A stretch of 64,000 nt of DNA from Aliikangiella marina (GTDB lineage Bacteria; Pseudomonadota; Gammaproteobacteria; Enterobacterales; Kangiellaceae), in assembly GCF_007004765.1 (NCBI RefSeq), contig NZ_VIKR01000002.1, positions 1,116,001-1,180,000 of the forward strand, read 5' to 3'. Shown one piece after another: positions 6,696 through 16,384 of the stretch. The stretch's first letter is position 1. The number at the start of each line of letters is the position of its first letter. The notes under the pieces are model-generated. The model had not been told where the DNA came from. It made no database searches and was given only the letters and a program-made list of their open reading frames with translations. The translations under genes and the position numbers were made by a program.

Positions 6696-7733
6696 GTGGG
6701 TCAATCATTAATTAATCATAAATGGGTTTACGTAGCCCGCCCTGAATCTGAAGTGGGCTACGAACATTACGAGATGCAGAGAGAGGAAATGACTGATGAC
6801 CTATCTGCCAATCAAGTTTTAATTGCTAATCAGTATCTGAGTGTTGACCCTTACATGCGGATTCAGCAAGCAGCAAGTCACACCTGGGAAGAACCACATC
6901 CACTGAACTCGCTTCAACAGTCTGGCGTTATTGGAAAAATCCTCGCTAGCGCGAGTAGCAAATTTAAACCTGGCGATTGGGTTAATGCTTATACCGGCTG
7001 GGAAAAATTTTCAAAAGTCAGTGCCAATGAATTAGTTAAACTCGATCCAACCGATATTCCGGTAACAACTTCACTTGGCATTTTAGGAATGCCGGGGAGA
7101 ACTGCTTGGTTTGGTCTGATCGAAGCCGGTAAACCAAAGCCGGGAGAGACCCTTGTGGTTTCAGGTGCGTCTGGAGCGGTCGGTTCTTTGGTGGTTCAGT
7201 TTGCTAAAAAAATCGGTTGTAAAGTGATAGCATTTGCGGGCTCTGATGAGAAATGCCGATGGTTAGAAAAATCACTGGGTGCAGACCTGGCGATTAATTA
7301 TAAACATTTTAATTGTTATCGAGAACTTCAATCATTTTTAGAAGAGAAAAGGATTGATGTTGATGTCTATTTTGATAACGTAGGTGGAATGATTTCCGAT
7401 GCCGTCATACCGTTGATTAGTTTACATGCAAGGGTTGTGATCTGCGGTCAAATGAGCCAGTACAATGGTATGTTAGATGAAGTTCAATTAGGCCCTCGTT
7501 TTCTCCATCATATTTTATATAAACGCGCAACTATTCAAGGAATTCTTGCACGCGATTTTAGTCATCGAATGGAAGAAATGGTTGAGATTGTTGGCCCTTG
7601 GGTAAAAGAAGGAAGCATAGTTTATCAGGAAAGCATTGTTCATGGTTTTGAAAAAATGCCCGAACACCTAGCGAGCTTATTTGATCGAGGTAGCTCAGGA
7701 AAGTTATTGGTGAGAATTGGAGATGAATATTGA
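6696..7733 (+). CDS. Zinc-independent medium-chain NADP(H) oxidoreductase (PTGR/CurA-like)
   Basis: A 345-residue protein of the medium-chain dehydrogenase/reductase superfamily, leukotriene B4 12-hydroxydehydrogenase/CurA branch. The N-terminal GroES-like domain includes YLSVDPYMRIQ, and the Rossmann domain has VVSGASGAVGSLVVQFAK (the AxxGxxG NADP motif) near residues 155-172, followed by VDVYFDNVGG. The zinc-binding cysteines of classical alcohol dehydrogenases are absent. Such enzymes reduce alpha,beta-unsaturated carbonyls with NADPH. The start is GTG at 6696 with GGCGGA just upstream; the nearby ATG at 6688 is out of frame. The LysR gene is divergent, and the next ORF overlaps the stop codon. 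Confidence 0.88.
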   Translation: MGQSLINHKWVYVARPESEVGYEHYEMQREEMTDDLSANQVLIANQYLSVDPYMRIQQAASHTWEEPHPLNSLQQSGVIGKILASASSKFKPGDWVNAYTGWEKFSKVSANELVKLDPTDIPVTTSLGILGMPGRTAWFGLIEAGKPKPGETLVVSGASGAVGSLVVQFAKKIGCKVIAFAGSDEKCRWLEKSLGADLAINYKHFNCYRELQSFLEEKRIDVDVYFDNVGGMISDAVIPLISLHARVVICGQMSQYNGMLDEVQLGPRFLHHILYKRATIQGILARDFSHRMEEMVEIVGPWVKEGSIVYQESIVHGFEKMPEHLASLFDRGSSGKLLVRIGDEY

Positions 7734-8413
7734 AAAATAAGTTTTTGCCCTTGTTGTTTCTTATAACACTTGTTGATTTAAAGCAGCTACATGCTGAGAC
7801 AAAAAGCCATGAAGATCATAGTAGTGCGGTTGGCATTCATGGTATGTCATTGCTAGAAGCAAATGGCGATTTGTTCGCGTCCCACATGCCGCTACACAAC
7901 TCAATTCATGCTTACCAAGTTATTTTAAAAGTAAGCTTTCGTGCTGATGAGGAAATAAAGATCATAAAGTTAATCGAAGACAACAAGCTGATCTCACTAA
8001 GGCCTGAATTGTTCGATCTTAATCAACTAATTAATGGAGAACTGATGTCTTTTAACACGGATATATTTATTGGGCATTTCGAACGAAATGGAAAAATTGC
8101 AATTGCCGATGTCAGGCTTAAGGTTGATAGGATGGTTTTATCGAAACCTATTGATAATTTCGAAAATGGTCGTTTCTATAATATCCCGCTAGACGATAAC
8201 TTGAGTTTATTGGTTCATCGGATCGGAAACCTTCCTAGCTTCGACCAAATTCTATTAGCGAATCGCCGAGAAGTAACCCAATCCGATGTAAATACGCTCA
8301 TTAACCCTAAAGTAAGTCTTCCGCTTGATCAAAAGGGTTTAAACGATACTTTTATGCAGCAAGGTTTTTACAACATCATCGAACTCTATCTTGAAACTGA
8401 AGACTTTCACTGA
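7730..8413 (+). CDS. Exported protein of unknown function
   Basis: A 227-residue protein that I do not recognise. It starts with a TTG that overlaps the TGA of the upstream reductase (TTGA) and has GGAGA 6-7 bases before it, so translation is probably coupled. Residues 1-22 form a signal peptide ending QLHA, followed by a short His/Asp/Glu-rich stretch (ETKSHEDHSSAVGIHGM). The rest looks like a mixed alpha/beta soluble domain with no membrane segment and no cysteines, consistent with a periplasmic protein. Its His-rich N-terminus could bind metal, but that is only a suggestion. Confidence 0.7.
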   Translation: MKNKFLPLLFLITLVDLKQLHAETKSHEDHSSAVGIHGMSLLEANGDLFASHMPLHNSIHAYQVILKVSFRADEEIKIIKLIEDNKLISLRPELFDLNQLINGELMSFNTDIFIGHFERNGKIAIADVRLKVDRMVLSKPIDNFENGRFYNIPLDDNLSLLVHRIGNLPSFDQILLANRREVTQSDVNTLINPKVSLPLDQKGLNDTFMQQGFYNIIELYLETEDFH

Positions 8414-8502
8414 GAAATTTAACCCCAAAAAAAATGAAAAGATCTCGATACTAAAATACTCAATAATTAATAAAATATTTATGCGTAGGAGCTAGAACGA
8501 GC

Positions 8503-8778
8503 ATGGACTATTCGCTTTTTGACTTGATCGGTAATGTCGGTGTGGCACTGATTATATGGGGTTATTTTTTATTGCAAATCGAAAAGGTTAGCGCGCACAA
8601 CTTATTATATTTGAACGCGAATTTAGTGGGAGCTGTGCTCATTATAATTTCTTTATCTAACAGTTTTAATTTGTCGGCATTTGTTATCGAAGTATTTTGG
8701 GTGGTGATTAGTTTATATGGAATATTTAAGACTCTTAGAGTAGATAAAAAAGAGTCAACTCAACAAAGCGACACGTAA
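8503..8778 (+). CDS. Small CBU_0592-like inner-membrane protein
   Basis: A 91-residue protein with three hydrophobic segments (about 8-26, 35-53 and 58-76) and a polar C-terminal tail rich in Lys, Gln and Ser. The start LFDLIGNVGVALIIWGYFLL and the spacing of the helices resemble the CBU_0592 family of small bacterial membrane proteins, whose function is unknown. AGGAG lies 11 bases before the ATG. It may end the reductase operon, but a 90-bp gap separates it from the gene before. Confidence 0.65.
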   Translation: MDYSLFDLIGNVGVALIIWGYFLLQIEKVSAHNLLYLNANLVGAVLIIISLSNSFNLSAFVIEVFWVVISLYGIFKTLRVDKKESTQQSDT

Positions 8779-8853
8779 ATTTGGCTATTCAAATTATTGA
8801 AGGATTCTGGAATGTTCTACGGTGAATAAAAAGTCTTTTGTGAAAATTCTACG

Positions 8854-8882
8854 TTGACAGAGTTTTTTAAAGGTGATATAAA
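8854..8882 (+). promoter_or_regulatory. Strong sigma-70 promoter of the TonB receptor locus
   Basis: A perfect TTGACA at 8854-8859 and TATAAA at 8877-8882, separated by exactly 17 bp. It is the clearest promoter in the window. Transcription should start near 8889, giving a leader of about 100 nt before the small ORF at 8991 and about 270 nt before the receptor gene. Confidence 0.75.
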
Positions 8883-8990
8883 ATTTGTGAAATCTCAAAA
8901 ATATATTTGTTTTAATTGAATTATTATCGGTATAGTTTGCAGTTTATCGAAATAACACTGCGCCATTCATCACAATAGAGGAGAAGACAT

Positions 8991-9065
8991 ATGACTAAAA
9001 ATGCATACTGCCTAATGTCTTATCACTATTGTGAATTCTACTTAAGCGAGTGGTTCGACGAATAG
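8991..9065 (+). CDS. 24-codon leader peptide ORF upstream of the TonB receptor
   Basis: ATG at 8991 follows the strong ribosome-binding site GAGGAGA (8977-8983 region) at good spacing, and the frame stays open for 24 codons to TAG at 9063-9065. The peptide starts MTKNAYCLMSYHYC and ends EFYLSEWFDE. It is rich in Tyr (four), Cys (two) and aromatic residues, and has no signal peptide. The stop codon is followed directly by the left arm of a structure that can mask the ribosome-binding site of the receptor gene. This is what is expected of a regulatory leader rather than a stable protein. Its coding nature is inferred from the ribosome-binding site and position only. Confidence 0.6.
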   Translation: MTKNAYCLMSYHYCEFYLSEWFDE

Positions 9066-9153
9066 CCTCGCCTTCCTAGTTAGCTTCGAAACGACTTTCG
9101 AGGTTTTCCTTAAAAATTAAAAACTAACGATTAAAATCCGCTTTCTAGGAAGG
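9066..9153 (+). promoter_or_regulatory. Candidate translational attenuator masking the receptor's ribosome-binding site
   Basis: CCTTCCTAG at 9071-9079 is perfectly complementary to CTAGGAAGG at 9145-9153, and the latter contains the receptor's Shine-Dalgarno sequence. A competing helix pairs CCTCG (9066-9070) with CGAGG (9099-9103), and a small hairpin, CGAAA-CGAC-TTTCG, lies between. A ribosome stopped at the leader's TAG (9063) would cover the left arm and so could free the Shine-Dalgarno. The base pairing is seen; the regulatory role is inferred. Confidence 0.55.
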
Positions 9154-9160
9154 TTTTGTT

Positions 9161-11914
9161 ATGCGTAATCAATTATTTAAGTATTCACTGACGGCGTTCG
9201 CGTGCGCTCAAATTTTTAACTCTGCCATCGTACTGGGCCAAGAAGATAATTCAGGAGAACAATCGGCTTCTGAAAAGAAAGTTGTTATTACTGGTTCAAG
9301 AATCAAGCAAGTTGATACCGAGGGCGTTTCTCCGGTAAAAACCATCGGCCAAGACGATATCCAAGAGTCTTCCGCCAATAATTTATCTGACCTGCTTAAA
9401 GAGTTATCGATCACTCATGGTGGTGAAGGATCTTTCTCGACTCACGCAAGTGGAGCACTGCAGGCTGATGCGCCGGTTGGAGCAGCTGCTGTTTCATTAC
9501 GAGGGTTGGGCGCCTCTTCGACTTTAGTATTGATAAATGGTCGCCGCGTGGCTGGTAGTTCATTTGCTTTTCAGTCACAAAATTTTATTGATATTAATTC
9601 TATTCCACTTGCTGCGGTAGAACGTGTTGAAATTTTACCCTCAGGGGCTTCTGCCATTTATGGTGCGGACGCGGTAGCAGGTGTGGTTAACTTGATTTTA
9701 AAAGACAGTGCCGTTGACAATGAACTACGAATTTCTTATGGAAATTCAGAAGCAAAAAGTGATGATACGGTTAAGAATTTGAGTTTAGTTTGGGGAATGT
9801 CGACTGATTCAACTGATATTAATATGTTTGTCGATTATTACGATGTTAATAGTTTGTATGATCGAGATAGGGACTTAACCGCCAATAGTTTTGACCCTTC
9901 ACAACAGGGGATCTGGCCAAGTTTTAATGGACAGTTTTTTGATGATATCGATTATGTAGAAGCAACTTGTCCTGACAGCTTAAGGTTTGATGACCGTGCG
10001 GGTTTTCCTATCAGTTCATTTGGGGAATACTGTCAATACAATCAAAATGCTTTTTTACCCACCTATCCTGCGCTGGAATCTGCCGCGGCCGGTTTCTTCT
10101 CGACGACCAATATAAATCCAAATTTAAGGTGGTTTAATGAAGTTTATTTTACGACTACGGAAAGCAGTGCTAATTCAACCGGGGCACCATTTAGTAACGT
10201 AGAAGTCCCCTTTGATCATCCTAATATGCCGACAGAACTAGCGACAAGGTTTAACGACCTCTGGAGTGATTTAGGTGTGCCTCCTGAGGATTTCTTATTA
10301 ATGTGGGGAAGGTTTGCTAATCCTCGAACTTTGCAAGTGACGAATGAAAACTTTCGTATTGTTACCGGTTTGGAAGGAAACTGGGAAAATTGGGATTGGA
10401 ACAGTTCATTGAATTACTCACAAAACAAAGCCGAACAGCGGGGCATAGCAGGCATTGTCAATGTCGAAAAATTTGAATCAGCACTTTATGGTGAATTGTG
10501 TGCAGATGGGAGTATTGGTTGTACACCGGGTGTGGATGGCCTCTACTTCAATCCGTTCAATGGCGGCTTAGATAATGATCAAGAAATCTTCGATTTGATC
10601 GAAGAAAATGTTCCGCGAAATGGTGAATCAAAGCTATTGGTGGTTGATTTTAATATTACCGGTGATTTGGCAGAACTTGAGAACGGTTCGTTATCAGCTG
10701 CGTTTGGCGCTGAATTTCGAAATGAAGAGGTTATCGACTCGCCTTCTCCATTAGCGACCGCCGATCCTGTAAGCGGAGAAGTGCCTGTATATGGCTTCGG
10801 TTCGACTGGCGCTCGTGCGGAACGAGATGTTTTTGCTGTCTATTCAGAGTTTTTAATTCCATTAGCCGAAAACTTTGAGCTTCAGCTAGCGGGTCGTTAC
10901 GATGACTATAGTGATTTTGGCGGTGATTTTAATCCCAAAGTCGGTTTCTTGTATCGAGCGACCGATGACTTCTTGATAAGAGGTTCATGGAATACTTCTT
11001 TCAGAGCGCCGTCACTTGCGCAAGTTGGCGCGGACACAACTTTGAGTTCTGGTGCACTTGAATGTGGTCCTGAGTTTTTAAATAACTTTTGTGGTGGATT
11101 TGGTGGGACTGATGGGTATTTATCAGAGATTTATGGTAATCCAGACTTGCAGGCCGAAGAGTCGGAGGCATTTGACATTGGCGTAGCAATTAACTTTTCA
11201 CAAGATGCTTATATGACACTCGATTATTGGGCATTTGAACATGACAATATTGTTGGTATTGATAATGAAGAGTTATTCAGAGCGGCGTTAAGAGGCGATG
11301 TTGCTGTTGTCGCTGAGGGTGATTTGGCGGTTGGAGAAATTGGCATAGAAACTCGCAACGGTGCAATTGGTGACCCGATTGAAGAAATTCATCTTCAATT
11401 AGAAAACCTTGGTATTCAAGAAACGTCTGGTATCGACTTTACCTATACGCAACATTGGAATGCCAATGAAAGTCGTTGGTCTTTGCTACTAGATGGTACC
11501 TACTTGCTCGACTATGACCGACAACGTTCTAAGCAAGCTGAAGTTGAACCACTTGAAGGAACGTTTCGTTATCCAGAGCTTATCTTGAGAGCAAAACTTC
11601 GCTGGCGAAATGATGATTGGTCAACAAGTCTTACAGGTTACTACGTTTCGAGTTACGACGATGATTTAGAGAAGTACACGGATGATGAATTATCGGCATT
11701 TGGCATATCAAGAAACCGCAAAATACCTGCTTGGCTCGAGTGGAGATTATCAGTCGGTTACGAGATTAATCAAGACGCTCACTTGCGGCTAAGCATTGAT
11801 AATTTGCTCGATGAAGATGCACCGCTTGCCTATGGTACTAGTGCCAACGTCGATCATTTTAATCACGATACCATGGGCCGATTTTTTCGTTTAACTTATA
11901 CTCAAAACTTTTAG
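9161..11914 (+). CDS. TonB-dependent outer-membrane receptor
   Basis: A 917-residue receptor with a signal peptide (about 1-26). The plug domain begins VVITGSRIKQ (TonB-box region before it) and includes NLSDLLKELS, SLRGLGASSTLVLINGRR and LPSGASAIYGADAVAGVVNL. The beta-barrel ends in the terminal aromatic residue expected for Bam-dependent insertion (FFRLTYTQNF). Length and motifs are typical of the family. Neighbouring genes for an isoaspartyl dipeptidase and a cyanophycinase suggest that the substrate is cyanophycin fragments or beta-linked Asp-Arg peptides; this is inferred from context. A leader ORF and masking structure precede it, and an intrinsic terminator follows immediately. Confidence 0.93.
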   Translation: MRNQLFKYSLTAFACAQIFNSAIVLGQEDNSGEQSASEKKVVITGSRIKQVDTEGVSPVKTIGQDDIQESSANNLSDLLKELSITHGGEGSFSTHASGALQADAPVGAAAVSLRGLGASSTLVLINGRRVAGSSFAFQSQNFIDINSIPLAAVERVEILPSGASAIYGADAVAGVVNLILKDSAVDNELRISYGNSEAKSDDTVKNLSLVWGMSTDSTDINMFVDYYDVNSLYDRDRDLTANSFDPSQQGIWPSFNGQFFDDIDYVEATCPDSLRFDDRAGFPISSFGEYCQYNQNAFLPTYPALESAAAGFFSTTNINPNLRWFNEVYFTTTESSANSTGAPFSNVEVPFDHPNMPTELATRFNDLWSDLGVPPEDFLLMWGRFANPRTLQVTNENFRIVTGLEGNWENWDWNSSLNYSQNKAEQRGIAGIVNVEKFESALYGELCADGSIGCTPGVDGLYFNPFNGGLDNDQEIFDLIEENVPRNGESKLLVVDFNITGDLAELENGSLSAAFGAEFRNEEVIDSPSPLATADPVSGEVPVYGFGSTGARAERDVFAVYSEFLIPLAENFELQLAGRYDDYSDFGGDFNPKVGFLYRATDDFLIRGSWNTSFRAPSLAQVGADTTLSSGALECGPEFLNNFCGGFGGTDGYLSEIYGNPDLQAEESEAFDIGVAINFSQDAYMTLDYWAFEHDNIVGIDNEELFRAALRGDVAVVAEGDLAVGEIGIETRNGAIGDPIEEIHLQLENLGIQETSGIDFTYTQHWNANESRWSLLLDGTYLLDYDRQRSKQAEVEPLEGTFRYPELILRAKLRWRNDDWSTSLTGYYVSSYDDDLEKYTDDELSAFGISRNRKIPAWLEWRLSVGYEINQDAHLRLSIDNLLDEDAPLAYGTSANVDHFNHDTMGRFFRLTYTQNF

Positions 11915-11921
11915 CTCCCAT

Positions 11922-11944
11922 AGGGCCGAAAGGCCCTCTTTTTT
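11922..11944 (+). terminator. Intrinsic terminator after the TonB receptor
   Basis: A perfect 6-bp GC-rich stem AGGGCC/GGCCCT with a GAAA tetraloop, followed by CTTTTTT. It lies 7 bp after the receptor stop codon, so the transporter and enzymes downstream need their own promoter or read-through. Confidence 0.9.
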
Positions 11945-11985
11945 ACCAAAATCGACTAGTTATTAGATAGGCTATATTTTTGGCG

Positions 11986-11991
11986 TATACT
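11986..11991 (+). promoter_or_regulatory. Candidate -10 element of the transporter-dipeptidase-cyanophycinase operon
   Basis: TATACT (five of six matches to TATAAT) lies 38 bp before the chosen ATG at 12029. No good -35 is visible 16-18 bp upstream, so it would be a weak or activated promoter. Its place favours the ATG at 12029 over the TTG at 11993 as the transporter start. Confidence 0.4.
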
Positions 11992-12028
11992 GTTGAGTAG
12001 TCAAAATTTAATAGCAAAGAATTTCAAA

Positions 12029-13510
12029 ATGATTAAATTTTCACAGATTAAAGTCCCTGATACGCTTGTTATTATATTAGTGCTCATGTCAGTTGCCTGG
12101 ATGGTAACGGGAGTAGTTCCCGTCGGGAGCTTTGAGACTAAGTCAGTGACATACGAATTTAATGATAAGTCAATTACTAAACAAGTGCTTGATGCGGAGT
12201 CCTTTCGCTATCGAGTTGACGAAAGTGGTAACAGCGAAACAAACATGTCCACGCTTTTTAGCGGCGAAGCTAATAGTGGCTTTCTAAACGCTGTCTTCGA
12301 TGGCATTACCCGAGGTGATCGAAATGGTGGTGCTGTCGGAATTATTGCGTTTTTATTGATTATTGGCGGCGCCTTTGGAGTGATCATGGCACCGACTAGT
12401 ATTCATAAATCAATGTTAAGACTGTTAGTTTTAACCAAGGGACATGATCTTCTCACTATTCCTATTTTATGCTTAGTTTTTTCTTTAGGCGGGGCTGTTT
12501 TTGGTATGGGCGAAGAAGCGATTGCGTTTGCAATGTTACTCACGCCAATAATGATCGCACAGGGATACAATGCCATTATCGCGGTCCTTTGTACTTACGT
12601 TGCGACTCAAATAGGTTTCGCGACTTCGTGGATGAATCCTTTTAATGTTGCCGTCGCTCAGGGACTGGCTGAAGTCCCAATGCTATCAGGAGCAGGTTTC
12701 AGGTTTATCATGTGGCTGACTTTTACCGTTGCCTTAATGATATTTGCGACAGCCTACGCGAAAAGTATCAAGTCGACCTCTCTCAACGAGAAAAACCAAC
12801 AATTACAGTACGAGAAAATAAAGCTCGAATCACAAATGAGTCTTGGTGACCGTTTAATCTTAATAAACTTATTTGCTGGCATTGCTTGGGTGATCTGGGG
12901 CGTTTCTATGCGAGGATATTATATTGCAGAAATCGCTTCTCAGTTTTTTACTATCGGTCTGACTTCTGCTTTGATTACCTTAATTTTTAAGCTCGATAAT
13001 TTGAGTGTTGATAATCTCGCCGCTGCCTTTAAGAAAGGTGCAGCCGATTTGGTGCCGGTCGTTTTGATCGTTGGTTTTGCCCAAGGAATACTGATCATTT
13101 TAGGGGGAGCGGATCCTAAGCAAGCATCGGCCCTAAATACGATTCTTTACAGCACGGCTCAAGCAATTGATGGTTTACCTGAAATGCTTTCAGCTTTTTG
13201 CATGTTAGGTTTTCAAGCGGTATTTAACTTTTTTGTTACCAGTGGTTCTGGGCAAGCAGCACTAACGATGCCACTACTTGCGCCAATCGCTGACTTGGTC
13301 GATGTGACTCGGCAAACAGCAGTGCTAACTTTTCAGCTCGGCGATGGGTTAACCAATATTATCGTACCGACCTCTGCACCTTTAATGGGAAGTTTAGGCG
13401 TCGCGGGTATCAATTGGAATGATTGGGCTGGATTCATCTGGAAGTTCTTGCTATTTAATTTATTTTTAGCTTTCGCGTTTGTTGCGATGGCTGTTGTTAT
13501 TGGATTTTGA
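12029..13510 (+). CDS. YfcC-family transporter (basic amino acid / dipeptide carrier)
   Basis: About 493 residues with some 12 hydrophobic segments. Family blocks include GGAVGIIAFLLIIGGAFGVI, VFSLGGAVFGMGEEAIAFAMLL and GDGLTNIIVPTSAPLMG, typical of the YfcC/DcuC-like ion transporter group annotated as putative basic amino acid antiporters. The start at ATG 12029 is preferred over the in-frame TTG at 11993, which lies about 2 bp after a -10-like TATACT. Two bases separate its stop from the dipeptidase start, and the dipeptidase overlaps the cyanophycinase, so the three genes form a coupled operon. In this setting it is likely to import beta-Asp-Arg or exchange arginine (inferred). Confidence 0.83.
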   Translation: MIKFSQIKVPDTLVIILVLMSVAWMVTGVVPVGSFETKSVTYEFNDKSITKQVLDAESFRYRVDESGNSETNMSTLFSGEANSGFLNAVFDGITRGDRNGGAVGIIAFLLIIGGAFGVIMAPTSIHKSMLRLLVLTKGHDLLTIPILCLVFSLGGAVFGMGEEAIAFAMLLTPIMIAQGYNAIIAVLCTYVATQIGFATSWMNPFNVAVAQGLAEVPMLSGAGFRFIMWLTFTVALMIFATAYAKSIKSTSLNEKNQQLQYEKIKLESQMSLGDRLILINLFAGIAWVIWGVSMRGYYIAEIASQFFTIGLTSALITLIFKLDNLSVDNLAAAFKKGAADLVPVVLIVGFAQGILIILGGADPKQASALNTILYSTAQAIDGLPEMLSAFCMLGFQAVFNFFVTSGSGQAALTMPLLAPIADLVDVTRQTAVLTFQLGDGLTNIIVPTSAPLMGSLGVAGINWNDWAGFIWKFLLFNLFLAFAFVAMAVVIGF

Positions 13511-13511
13511 C

Positions 13512-14681
13512 ATGTTAACACTAATCAAAAATGCAGAGGTAGTTGCGCCCGTCAAGCTTGGGAAACAAGATGTTTTAATCTGCGGGGAAAAAATTCTTGC
13601 GATTGAAAGTTTAATTGAAATTAATTCACCGTATGTAGCGCTTGTTGATGCTAGTGACAAAATCATGGTGCCAGGGTTTGTTGATTCTTTGGTTCATATA
13701 ACCGGTGGTGGTGGCGAAGGTGGCTTTACAACAAGAACACCCGAAGTCAATTTAACCGACTTAACAACTGCGGGTATTACTACGCTAGTGGCGGCGTTAG
13801 GGACCGATTCAATTAGTCGCAGTCTAAATGAGCTGTTGGTGAAAGCGAAGGAACTCAATGCTTATGGGTTGAGTTGTTATATTTATAGCGGTTCTTATCA
13901 TTTACCCTTGAAAACGATAACTGGCGATTTGCAAAGTGATATTGTTTTGATCGATGAGTGTATTGGCGTTGGTGAGGTGGCGATTGCCGATCACCGTGGT
14001 TCTCAGCCCCATTTTAGGGAGCTCGCTCGGATTGCTTCAGATGCCAGAGTAGGCGGAATGCTTAGCGGTAAAAGTGGTATTGTGAGTATTCATATGGGAC
14101 CGGGAAACAGTATGTTTAGCCTAATTGATGAGGTCGTTGAGAAGACGGATATTCCCATCAGTCAATTTTACCCAACACATATCAATCGAAATAAAGTCTT
14201 ATTTAACGCTGGCATCGATTTTACTAAGCGTGGCGGGTACATCGATTTAACAACAAGTAGTAATTCGATGGCGTTCGAGCTAGGTGAAATCAAATGCAGC
14301 AAGGGCCTCAAAGAATTCTTGGATAGTGGTGGCGATATACAGCAGATTACCTTTAGCTCAGATGGTCATGCTAGTCTTCCTGAGTTTGATGAAGCTGGTA
14401 ATCTAATCTCTTTGGAAGTTGGTAATGAAGGCTCACTTTTTAGAGAAGTAAGAGACTGTGTTTTACATGAATCTATCCCGCTAGAGGTTGCTATTCAGGC
14501 AATCACATCGACTCCTGCAGATGTATTAAAGCTCAAAAACAAGGGACGTTTGCAAGCAAATAATGATGCTGATTTAGTTCTGCTTGAGAAACAGTCACTT
14601 CACATAGAGTCAGTGATGAGTAAAGGCCAGTGGCTGGTGCGAAATCAGACGCCACTAATCAAAGGAACTTTTGAGTCATGA
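13512..14681 (+). CDS. iadA: Isoaspartyl dipeptidase (IadA-like) with altered metal site
   Basis: With the ATG at 13512 the protein is 390 residues, the same length as E. coli IadA; the longer frame from 13479 would overlap the transporter. No signal peptide is present, so it is cytosolic. Shared blocks are GGGGEGGFTTRTPEV, ALGTDSISR, SGSYHLP, ADHRG, PTHINRN and SSDG, and the C-terminus ends IKGTFES. IadA cleaves beta-aspartyl dipeptides, including beta-Asp-Arg released by cyanophycinase. Metal ligands His62, His194, His223 and Asp284 are kept. The first His of the HxH motif is Leu60, and the carboxylated Lys162 of E. coli aligns with Glu155. That pattern resembles one-metal amidohydrolases such as E. 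coli NagA. Activity is therefore likely but should not be taken for granted. Confidence 0.88.
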   Translation: MLTLIKNAEVVAPVKLGKQDVLICGEKILAIESLIEINSPYVALVDASDKIMVPGFVDSLVHITGGGGEGGFTTRTPEVNLTDLTTAGITTLVAALGTDSISRSLNELLVKAKELNAYGLSCYIYSGSYHLPLKTITGDLQSDIVLIDECIGVGEVAIADHRGSQPHFRELARIASDARVGGMLSGKSGIVSIHMGPGNSMFSLIDEVVEKTDIPISQFYPTHINRNKVLFNAGIDFTKRGGYIDLTTSSNSMAFELGEIKCSKGLKEFLDSGGDIQQITFSSDGHASLPEFDEAGNLISLEVGNEGSLFREVRDCVLHESIPLEVAIQAITSTPADVLKLKNKGRLQANNDADLVLLEKQSLHIESVMSKGQWLVRNQTPLIKGTFES

Positions 14682-16384
14682 GGGTTAAAATCTACAATCT
14701 ATTTATCATAAGTGTATTTATGCTTTTAGGGCCAGCCATACAAGCGACAGAGAAAAAAATGTTGCTAGTCGGTGGAGGTTTAAAAATATGTTCTAGCTAC
14801 TCTCCGAGAAATTGTACCGAATCAGTCAAATTTGACGACACTGCTTATAAGTCGAGTTATTTCTCAGTAAATTCCGATAAGCAAGTAATTATTGCTCAGG
14901 ATGCTTTTAACCTATTTTCTGATAAAAACAAGCTTACTCGTGTCGTCGAACTGTTAGCTAAGTATCAATTACGTTTTGATACGGCGCCTGTCACTCGACG
15001 AGAACTTTTAAAACGACTGGATAATATTAAACTTACCAGTAATCAAATGATGGGGCGTAAGCTCTTAGATGATCTAGACTCGAGACAATGGAATTTTCTT
15101 ATTCATTATTTACAAGTTCCAGTTGTCGATCGCAAAGGAGAAGCGTTAACTGAATATGTCGATTTTGAAAATAGCCACCCAGATTCACAGCGCATTATTA
15201 ATCAGTTTATTTCGATGGTGTCATCGATTAGTGGTGATAACCGGCCGACTGTACTATTTAGCACTGCGTCAGCGAATGATGTTTTTGATGCGGCAAGTTT
15301 TTATCTGCAACTGTTCCGCCATTTTGAAGTTGACGCTGTTTGGTTACCATTAGAAGCAAGCCTTAACCGGGTGATGAATGATCCAAACAAAGAGTGCACC
15401 GATCTAGCGAGAGTAAGAGGGGAGTATTATAGTGTTTTTAACCGTGACAAGGTATACCCACAGTTAGCTCGCTATCAGCAAAGTTTTTGTGAGAATCCTC
15501 ATTATTTTACGACTTTGATTGGACAAGCAAGCGGGATTTTCTTCAATGGTGGTGATCAGTTTTTGGCCCTTTCTTCGTTAGCTGATACGGAGGGCGGAGA
15601 GAAAGCTTTTTCACCTTTTTATCGACAAATGAAAACAAAGTTTGATCGTGGGCAGCTTGTTGTCGCAGGCACCAGCGCGGGCACAGCTGTTCAAAGCGGA
15701 GGATTGTTTGCTGATCGCTTACTACCAATGATTACTAACGGTGAAAGTATCGCGGGCTTTTTTGATGGTGCCTATGCAACAAATTTTCCTCCGTCCGATC
15801 AGTGTGAATTACAAAATAGCTGTGGCGAGGCCATTGGTGCGGATAGTTTGACCTACTTTGGTTCTGGTGGGTTGGAACTGCTACCAATTGGCATTTTAGA
15901 TACCCATTTTTCCGAACGAAATCGAGCGTTTCGATTAATTCGCTTGCTCAATACGACTAAAGTTTCTCATGGAATTGGTATCGACGAAAACACTGGACTG
16001 GTCGTCAAGCAGAAAAACGGCAAGTTAAGTTATGAAACGATAGGTCAAAATGGCGTTTGGTTTTTTCAATTGACCGATGAATCGAATGCTACGATTGTCG
16101 CCAATCGTGTAAATGCTGCGAGTTATTTAAATGACGAGAATAATATAAATGGTTTGAAAGTTAAAATGAGCGCTAAATATGACTCGCGGAAAAAGTCTGC
16201 GATTGCAAGTCGTTTGGGAACCGATCAATTAGCTAAAGTAATAACTAAAGCAATTAACGAGAAGTCGAAGCAAGCTTCAGGCATTCTTATACATCAACAA
16301 AAAACTGCTTCGTATATTGTCAGTATCAAAGACAGTAGCAGCCACTCACTGGAGTTACAACTCAATCTTCAATCGCGCTGGTAA
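14678..16384 (+). CDS. Exported cyanophycinase-like S51 peptidase
   Basis: A 568-residue protein overlapping the dipeptidase stop by four bases (ATGA). Residues 1-23 are a signal peptide ending AIQA. The S51 core shows LLVGGG near the start, GIFFNGGDQ (about 285-294), the nucleophile elbow AGTSAGT with Ser333, and LDTHFSERNRAFRL with His410. The GGDQ, GTSAG and D-x-HF-x-x-R-x-R series is characteristic of cyanophycinases. They release beta-Asp-Arg from cyanophycin. The protein is longer than cyanobacterial CphB (about 270), with an inserted N-terminal region and a C-terminal domain after about 440, as in extracellular CphE-type enzymes. Export implies digestion outside the cytoplasm. Confidence 0.85.
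   Translation: MRVKIYNLFIISVFMLLGPAIQATEKKMLLVGGGLKICSSYSPRNCTESVKFDDTAYKSSYFSVNSDKQVIIAQDAFNLFSDKNKLTRVVELLAKYQLRFDTAPVTRRELLKRLDNIKLTSNQMMGRKLLDDLDSRQWNFLIHYLQVPVVDRKGEALTEYVDFENSHPDSQRIINQFISMVSSISGDNRPTVLFSTASANDVFDAASFYLQLFRHFEVDAVWLPLEASLNRVMNDPNKECTDLARVRGEYYSVFNRDKVYPQLARYQQSFCENPHYFTTLIGQASGIFFNGGDQFLALSSLADTEGGEKAFSPFYRQMKTKFDRGQLVVAGTSAGTAVQSGGLFADRLLPMITNGESIAGFFDGAYATNFPPSDQCELQNSCGEAIGADSLTYFGSGGLELLPIGILDTHFSERNRAFRLIRLLNTTKVSHGIGIDENTGLVVKQKNGKLSYETIGQNGVWFFQLTDESNATIVANRVNAASYLNDENNINGLKVKMSAKYDSRKKSAIASRLGTDQLAKVITKAINEKSKQASGILIHQQKTASYIVSIKDSSSHSLELQLNLQSRW

Follow-up and report, generated by a model that had tools for sequence, protein, structure and literature searches.

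Cyanobacteria and other bacteria store nitrogen as cyanophycin; to our knowledge little is established about how scavenging organisms take it up. We analyzed a 64,000-nucleotide stretch of the genome of Aliikangiella marina (contig NZ_VIKR01000002.1, positions 1,116,001 to 1,180,000; hereafter the window), in which a short leader open reading frame (ORF) precedes genes for a TonB-dependent receptor, a carrier of the YfcC type, an IadA-type isoaspartyl dipeptidase and a predicted exported, cyanophycinase-like protein of family S51. It is highly probable that these genes constitute a cyanophycin scavenging locus, and we regard it as likely that they do so together with some regulatory role of the leader. 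That the leader acts as a regulatory arrest or attenuation peptide is the explanation toward which we lean, with less assurance.

Parts of such a system have been described before. Cyanophycin utilization loci that combine a cyanophycinase, iadA and a transporter were reported by Ben Hania et al. 2017 (as cited in PMC10206079), Citromicrobium sp. JLT1363 has a TonB transporter gene next to that of a cyanophycinase (PMC3400609), and cyanophycinases predicted to be secreted or to act extracellularly are known from Pseudoalteromonas tunicata (PMC2536512) and Thalassotalea sp. PS06 (PMC7564069). The locus in the window is therefore one of a known kind, with new features. It shares with that of Ben Hania et al. 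the clustering of cyanophycinase, iadA and transporter in a genome without cyanophycin synthetase, and differs, as far as the citing text describes the latter, in its dedicated clade of TonB receptors, its YfcC-type carrier, an IadA that lacks the first histidine of the HxH motif, and a conserved leader. The sequence-only reading from which this analysis started knew of no TonB receptor assigned to cyanophycin; that statement has to be withdrawn, since in Citromicrobium a receptor is likewise assigned to the polymer through its gene neighborhood. Compared by description only, Citromicrobium is a single case, whereas the receptors considered here form a clade across many gammaproteobacterial genera. 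Scavenging of foreign cyanophycin has also been proposed already for P. tunicata and Thalassotalea sp. PS06, in genera where the locus is found, but in the available passages of those two reports the enzyme is not connected with any receptor, carrier, dipeptidase or leader.

For the leader, two described nascent peptides bear comparison: the fungal arginine attenuator peptide, which Arg causes to stall at its own stop codon (PMC7969011), and TnaC, which stalls with free Trp (PMC8429421). Like both, the leader is short and conserved, is encoded ahead of metabolic genes, and carries its core at the C-terminal end. The fungal peptide acts in eukaryotes, where it represses a gene of Arg biosynthesis, whereas stalling of the present leader is a proposal from sequence.

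Gene linkage and the predicted enzymes

The S51 protein of the window was searched in 61 genomes (that of A. marina, labeled G000, and 60 relatives) and in 394 genomes of the order, in which G000 is again counted, and homologues were found in 9 and 41 genomes, respectively. The S51 regions from both searches make up a 41-region set, from which weak partial matches (G119, G279, G288 and G296:C35) were excluded. A second set, which overlaps with the first, comprises the best 80 of at least 451 S51 relatives recovered by a separate pattern scan of genomes. Gene presence was counted by tblastn (>100 bits), since ORF-based calling skipped some genes in GC-rich loci (L149, L177) and gives lower counts. 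Receptor, YfcC and IadA genes occur together in 27 of the 41 regions; all four genes are co-directional, with S51 last, in three regions of the window's family, and in most of the others the receptor-YfcC-IadA genes are divergent from S51. Among the best-80 loci, the receptor is present in 67, YfcC in 68, IadA in 67 and all three in 60. Several of the 20 incomplete loci end at contig edges, and the gene set is missing from three S51 loci of Idiomarina, namely L151 (close to a contig end), L164 and L168, as well as from L192. The genera represented include Kangiella, Pseudoalteromonas, Shewanella, Alteromonas, Idiomarina, Rheinheimera, Wenzhouxiangella, Arenimonas and others, alongside one Bdellovibrionota bin.

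Receptor matches in the 394 genomes were compared by hand with the S51 matches at a limit of 10 kb; scoring covered the top two candidates of each genome, so that weaker paralogues are under-sampled. The sequence-only reading had named beforehand, as a finding that would tell against it, receptor homologues unlinked to cyanophycinase or isoaspartyl dipeptidase genes, and linkage is what was found: 29 of the 30 receptor matches of at least 414 bits have an S51 gene no more than 10 kb away, G328:C3 being the one without. Next in score come 32 matches of 376 bits or less, of which 31 lie away from S51 and one (G375) at a distance of 8.7 kb. In a tree of 35 receptors, 23 S51-linked sequences, the orphan of G328 and a tandem copy form a clade of 25 with 100/100 support, while the other receptor paralogues of G000 fall outside it, some on long branches. 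Structure gives no further guidance: the receptor model, with a mean predicted local distance difference test (pLDDT) score of 79.7, adopts a generic TonB receptor fold, and what it matches in sequence and in structure, namely generic receptors for siderophores, colicins and B12, is uninformative on the substrate. At two loci (L104 and L109), S51, YfcC and IadA genes are accompanied by a different large protein in the receptor position, which in L104 is receptor-like and has a carboxypeptidase-regulatory-like domain. A leader was looked for at both and none was found, and it is possible that the receptor has been replaced there.

The S51 protein carries the motifs GGDQ (residues 291-294), GTSAG (331-335) and DTHFSERNR (408-416). 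In CphE, the catalytic residues are S171, H224 and E251, and the binding residues are Q136, D222, T223, R228, R230 and R233, with Thr in place of Gln173 of CphB (PMC3235067). The triad is matched in the window by S333, H410 and E437, and all six binding residues by Q294, D408, T409, R414, R416 and R419, including the Thr substitution; all nine positions are invariant across 40 aligned S51 sequences. Six cysteines (C38, C46, C240, C271, C376 and C382) are invariant in the same alignment, which fits an exported protein. The N-terminus is signal-like, and from this we predict that the protein is exported, to a periplasmic or secreted location. It thus resembles CphE of P. anguilliseptica and P. 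alcaligenes (PMC3235067), likewise an exported S51 protein with the same catalytic and binding residues, and differs from it, as there described, in its length (568 versus about 420 amino acids), in an inserted helical region and an extra C-terminal region of beta structure, and in scoring below the TIGR02069 cut-off.

A model built from the 40-sequence alignment (mean pLDDT 87.3) was compared with solved structures using Foldseek. Cyanophycinase accounts for six of the nine best PDB chains (3en0, 7uqw) and pseudo-CphB for the other three (7uqv), with E values from 2.6e-13 to 7.8e-10; the first is 7uqw, which has a cyanophycin dimer bound. They are followed by another peptidase and then by dipeptidase-E chains. 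About half of the protein, namely the helical insertion and the C-terminal region, lies outside the match (query TM 0.32). Profile matches to PDB sequences at E ≤0.001 number three, every one named cyanophycinase. The gene linkage, the retained CphE residues and a model closest to cyanophycinase entries together support the earlier reading of the region as a cyanophycin-scavenging locus. As a side observation, the A. marina genome holds two S51 genes about 20 kb apart (G000:C6:373034-373645 and 392620-393231), both scoring 209.9 bits, which are probably the product of a recent duplication.

No cyanophycin synthetase scores above the cut-off in the A. marina genome (best 85 bits versus 850). 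The possibility that the genes serve the cell's own storage was rejected on this ground, and cyanophycin would not be its own store. What the genome does hold is the composition of a cyanophycin utilization locus, with a cyanophycinase-like gene (assigned by residues and fold), iadA and a transporter clustered and no synthetase above cut-off.

The dipeptidase is an IadA by family score, with what appears to be an unusual active site. The first histidine of the HxH motif of IadA binds metal. In the window this residue is Leu, giving LVH where the solved enzymes aligned with it (7cdh, 7cf6, 5xgw, 5xgx and 8dqn) have HVH or HAH. The same Leu is found in 93 of 94 IadA sequences from these loci (two overlapping sets pooled; the exception is L059), which argues that the locus carries its own IadA subfamily, possibly a one-metal variant.

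A conserved leader peptide

The leader upstream of the receptor has 24 codons and ends in FYLSEWF(D/N)E followed by the stop codon. A leader with this core precedes the receptor in every one of the 67 receptor-bearing best-80 loci (66 of 66 ORF-called receptors, plus L149). In the 41-region set it is present at 25 of 27 receptor loci, and the other two have variants ending in FDN and FNN. It is also kept at 6 of the 13 best-80 loci that have no receptor, where it heads YfcC-IadA (L124, L132, L160 and L179), IadA (L136), or a second S51-type protein that is 49% identical to the S51 protein on G000 contig 1 (L156). The seven best-80 loci in which no leader was found (L121, L151, L162, L164, L168, L172 and L192) all lack the receptor.

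A strict DNA pattern of the leader gave 38 matches in 35 of the 394 genomes of the order, compared with 5 for a reversed control pattern. These comprise 27 at the loci described above, 8 before a binding protein, 2 before other S51 genes and 1 before a receptor. Outside the order, none was found in 356 genomes of the class (reversed pattern, 1); the two matches in the 360-genome class sample are G000 and G067, both of which belong to the order. The eight copies before a binding protein (L263-L269 and L239) come from a single genus and head a protein of the Lys/Arg/Orn type. The one copy scanned, L265, scores above the Lys/Arg/Orn family cut-off (282.8 versus 256.35), close homologues stand behind the leader in 8 of 8, and iadA comes next after the binding protein in all 7 copies with enough sequence. 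The eight genomes of this genus gave no match to the window's S51 query, which suggests that what unites the leader-headed genes is Arg/Lys or a beta-Asp dipeptide and not the polymer. In L264 and L265, the IadA again has Leu for the first HxH histidine, and the L265 locus has a HisP-like ATPase (below cut-off) and a second binding protein nearby.

The two leaders before other S51 genes (L270 and L271) precede proteins with signal-like N-termini and PF03575 scores above cut-off, and a PPC domain scores above cut-off in L270 only. L271 (~7540-9068) is a second copy in A. marina itself, at G000:C1:297067-297090; its S51 protein has 461 amino acids from the ATG and scores 93.9 bits with TIGR02069, below the cut-off. 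A third A. marina copy, MIKKIYKFESNSYKEFYLSEWFDE, at G000:C6:292502-292525 (L272, 5831-9503), heads a TonB receptor of 1130 amino acids.

No Pfam or NCBIfam family matched the leader in the three copies scanned, although such scans are weak for 24 residues. Rfam returned nothing at the gathering threshold in the window, and at E ≤1 the interval 8850-9250 gave only a chance snoRNA match. A literature search with strings of the leader motif found no paper containing them, and the peptide is apparently undescribed. Its YLSEW presumably resembles the core YLSD..W of the fungal peptide, a likeness to which we give little weight.

Leader statistics were computed on 79 leaders, 71 of them distinct; the hairpin and selection figures come from related sequences and are not phylogenetically independent. 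Counted back from the stop codon, L at -7 and W at -4 are invariant among the 71 distinct leaders and Y at -8 is present in 67, in a search whose expression fixed S, E and the final E and allowed W or Y at -4. The distance from ATG to stop is exactly 24 codons in 65 of the 71. The ratio of nonsynonymous to synonymous differences (pN/pS) falls to 0.185 in the final nine codons, from 0.67 in the earlier part (pS 0.69, near saturation). The low ratio at the end indicates that selection acts on the peptide, and the leader is thus a short cis ORF under peptide-level selection.

The RNA just past the leader stop is also structured. The first 55 nucleotides have a mean folding z score of -1.93 relative to shuffles, as against -0.31 for windows further on, which are partly coding (Wilcoxon p 6e-10). 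A strong stem begins within 20 nucleotides of the stop in 30 of the 71 distinct leaders, compared with 4-7 of 71 at control positions, and in two aligned groups of leaders, read by eye, many stems hold their position while the sequence differs. In the window, 9063-9165 folds at -27 kcal/mol (z -2.89), and the duplex of CCTTCCTAG with CTAGGAAGG, which contains the ribosome-binding site of the receptor gene, has an energy of -22.6 kcal/mol. Two mechanisms were considered and rejected as common to the leaders: intrinsic termination, since a U-rich tail follows only 6 of the 30 strong stems, and general sequestration of the receptor ribosome-binding site, since at 66 loci a leader's own pairs average -11.7 as against -11.0 for cross-paired sequences.

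Layout of the locus in the window

The features of the locus are collected below. The four genes that the sequence-only reading had described, their spacing and the three S51 motifs were all recovered as it gave them: iadA begins 1 nucleotide past the carrier stop codon, and the S51 gene overlaps iadA by 4 nucleotides.

Features of the leader, receptor and three-gene unit, in window positions
Feature	Position	Strand	Basis or remarks
Probable sigma-70 promoter (TTGACA, 17 nucleotides, TATAAA) of the leader/receptor transcript	8854..8882	+	Read by eye
24-codon leader ORF, MTKNAYCLMSYHYCEFYLSEWFDE-stop	8991..9065	+	Ribosome-binding site AGAGGAG at ~8977-8983, by eye
RNA switch candidate, CCTTCCTAG (9071-9079) pairing with CTAGGAAGG (9145-9153)	9071..9153	+	Fold and duplex energies
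TonB-dependent receptor, 917 amino acids	9161..11914	+	PF07715 (plug) and PF00593 (beta-barrel) above cut-off
Terminator-like hairpin AGGGCC-GAAA-GGCCCT (11922-11937) plus T-run CTTTTTTACC	11922..11947	+	Directly 3' of the receptor gene
DcuC-family carrier, YfcC type	12029..13510	+	NF008611 639.3 bits (cut-off 500); PF03606 351.1 (cut-off 23.1)
IadA-type isoaspartyl dipeptidase	13512..14681	+	TIGR01975 503.5 bits (cut-off 331.25)
Predicted exported S51 cyanophycinase-like protein, 568 amino acids	14678..16384	+	Residues, fold, context

The promoter is not listed by the consensus scan, which requires T as the last base of the second hexamer. The ATG of the carrier gene was chosen by eye, and the ORF list begins this frame at a TTG at 11993. 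Intrinsic-terminator-like sites are not in excess in the region (6, compared with a shuffle mean of 7.7). Given the hairpin between receptor and carrier, the receptor gene and the three-gene unit need not share one transcript. Between a gene for a 227-residue protein and the promoter lies a small ORF of about 90 codons (~8503-8778), read by eye as apparently encoding a membrane protein.

Proposed function and alternative explanations

We propose that the TonB receptor carries soluble cyanophycin or larger fragments across the outer membrane, that the YfcC-type carrier would take the resulting dipeptide or amino acids across the inner membrane, and that IadA, in the cytoplasm, would cleave the dipeptide. 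The 24-residue leader probably acts as a gate on receptor expression. With digestion products (Arg or a beta-Asp-Arg-type dipeptide) in good supply, the ribosome would stall at the FYLSEWF(D/N)E end and cover the RNA just past the leader stop, that is, the 5' arm of the post-stop structure; a hairpin or terminator might thereby be prevented from forming, and the downstream gene would stay on. Arg, Lys or beta-Asp dipeptides are proposed as the signal because the gene set points there. We infer the substrate, the direction of transport, the protein locations, the cargo of the carrier and the stalling and ligand of the leader, and a basic-amino-acid cargo for YfcC is a label taken from its database name.

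Several observations weigh against this account. The S51 protein scores below both curated cut-offs (82 versus 126.6 bits for TIGR02069 and 23.1 versus 23.9 for PF03575), so that we assign it by residues, fold and context and file it as cyanophycinase-like and not as a TIGR02069 equivalog. The absence of the first HxH histidine makes the activity of IadA uncertain. The S51 gene is found in none of six same-genus genomes and is thus patchy within the genus; 13 of the best-80 loci have no receptor, some of them being cut by contig ends; a terminator-like hairpin separates receptor from carrier; and neither S51 nor iadA is among the genes shown within 5 kb of the third A. marina leader and its 1130-residue receptor. 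As to the leader itself, 41 of 71 have no strong post-stop stem by the score used and no one structure is common to all, while sequestration of the ribosome-binding site, strong in the window, is not general in its relatives. The leader start in the window has a good Shine-Dalgarno site, but a Shine-Dalgarno-like match is present at only 9 of 65 distinct ATG leader starts, compared with 13 of 31 iadA starts, and a looser motif at 15 of 65, compared with 14 of 71 in a shifted window.

As one alternative, the locus might serve beta-linked (isoaspartyl) peptides in general, for example fragments of aged proteins, and its S51 enzyme might have drifted to another peptide bond. The S51 score below the cyanophycinase cut-off would fit such drift, as would the title pseudo-CphB of one solved S51 relative, and two tested IadA/IaaA enzymes from cyanophycin clusters are described as promiscuous (PMC10206079). 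We nevertheless judge this improbable: the pocket residues of CphE are kept in full and are invariant in 40 aligned sequences, and beta-Asp-X peptides by themselves need no exported cyanophycinase-like enzyme. The polymer might instead be digested entirely outside the cell by a fully secreted S51 protein, its dipeptides entering through porins, and the receptor would then carry something else or longer fragments only. A beta-Asp-Arg dipeptide is small enough for porins. The activity of recombinant CphE in culture supernatants (PMC3235067) speaks for secretion. The receptor, however, tracks the locus across families and does so in a clade of its own, and we consider this possibility unlikely.

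The leader admits two further explanations. Its richness in Tyr, Phe, Trp and His would suit a classical codon-counting attenuator that responds to aromatic amino acid starvation and not a ligand-sensing nascent peptide, but an invariant LSEW core without a run of any single residue would be unexpected of such a device, L and S are fixed as residues but freely variable in their codons, and the genes downstream deal with Asp and Arg instead of aromatic amino acids; this we hold to be quite improbable. Strong peptide-level selection would equally be expected if the ORF encoded a stable small protein with a function of its own that lies upstream by chance. Here the fixed distance from ATG to stop in most copies, the position of the core at the extreme C-terminus, and the fact that the copies examined closely precede genes for transport, S51 or IadA proteins all argue otherwise, and we regard such a protein as very improbable.

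Returning to the arrest or attenuation peptide that we favor, a wider proposal can be offered tentatively, and we hold it with somewhat less than even confidence. The FYLSEWF(D/N)E leader may represent a new family of bacterial nascent-peptide sensors, in which Arg or beta-Asp-Arg stops the ribosome at the stop codon and so switches on a regulon for cyanophycin and beta-Asp dipeptides (receptor, carrier, dipeptidase, exported S51 protein and uptake of the Lys/Arg/Orn type) in many gammaproteobacteria, as a possible counterpart of the fungal arginine attenuator peptide. As a sequence marker, the leader could help to locate more genes of this regulon, and it is a candidate small-molecule sensor of 24 residues. 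With a receptor clade tied to cyanophycin across many genera, the function of the receptor becomes directly testable.

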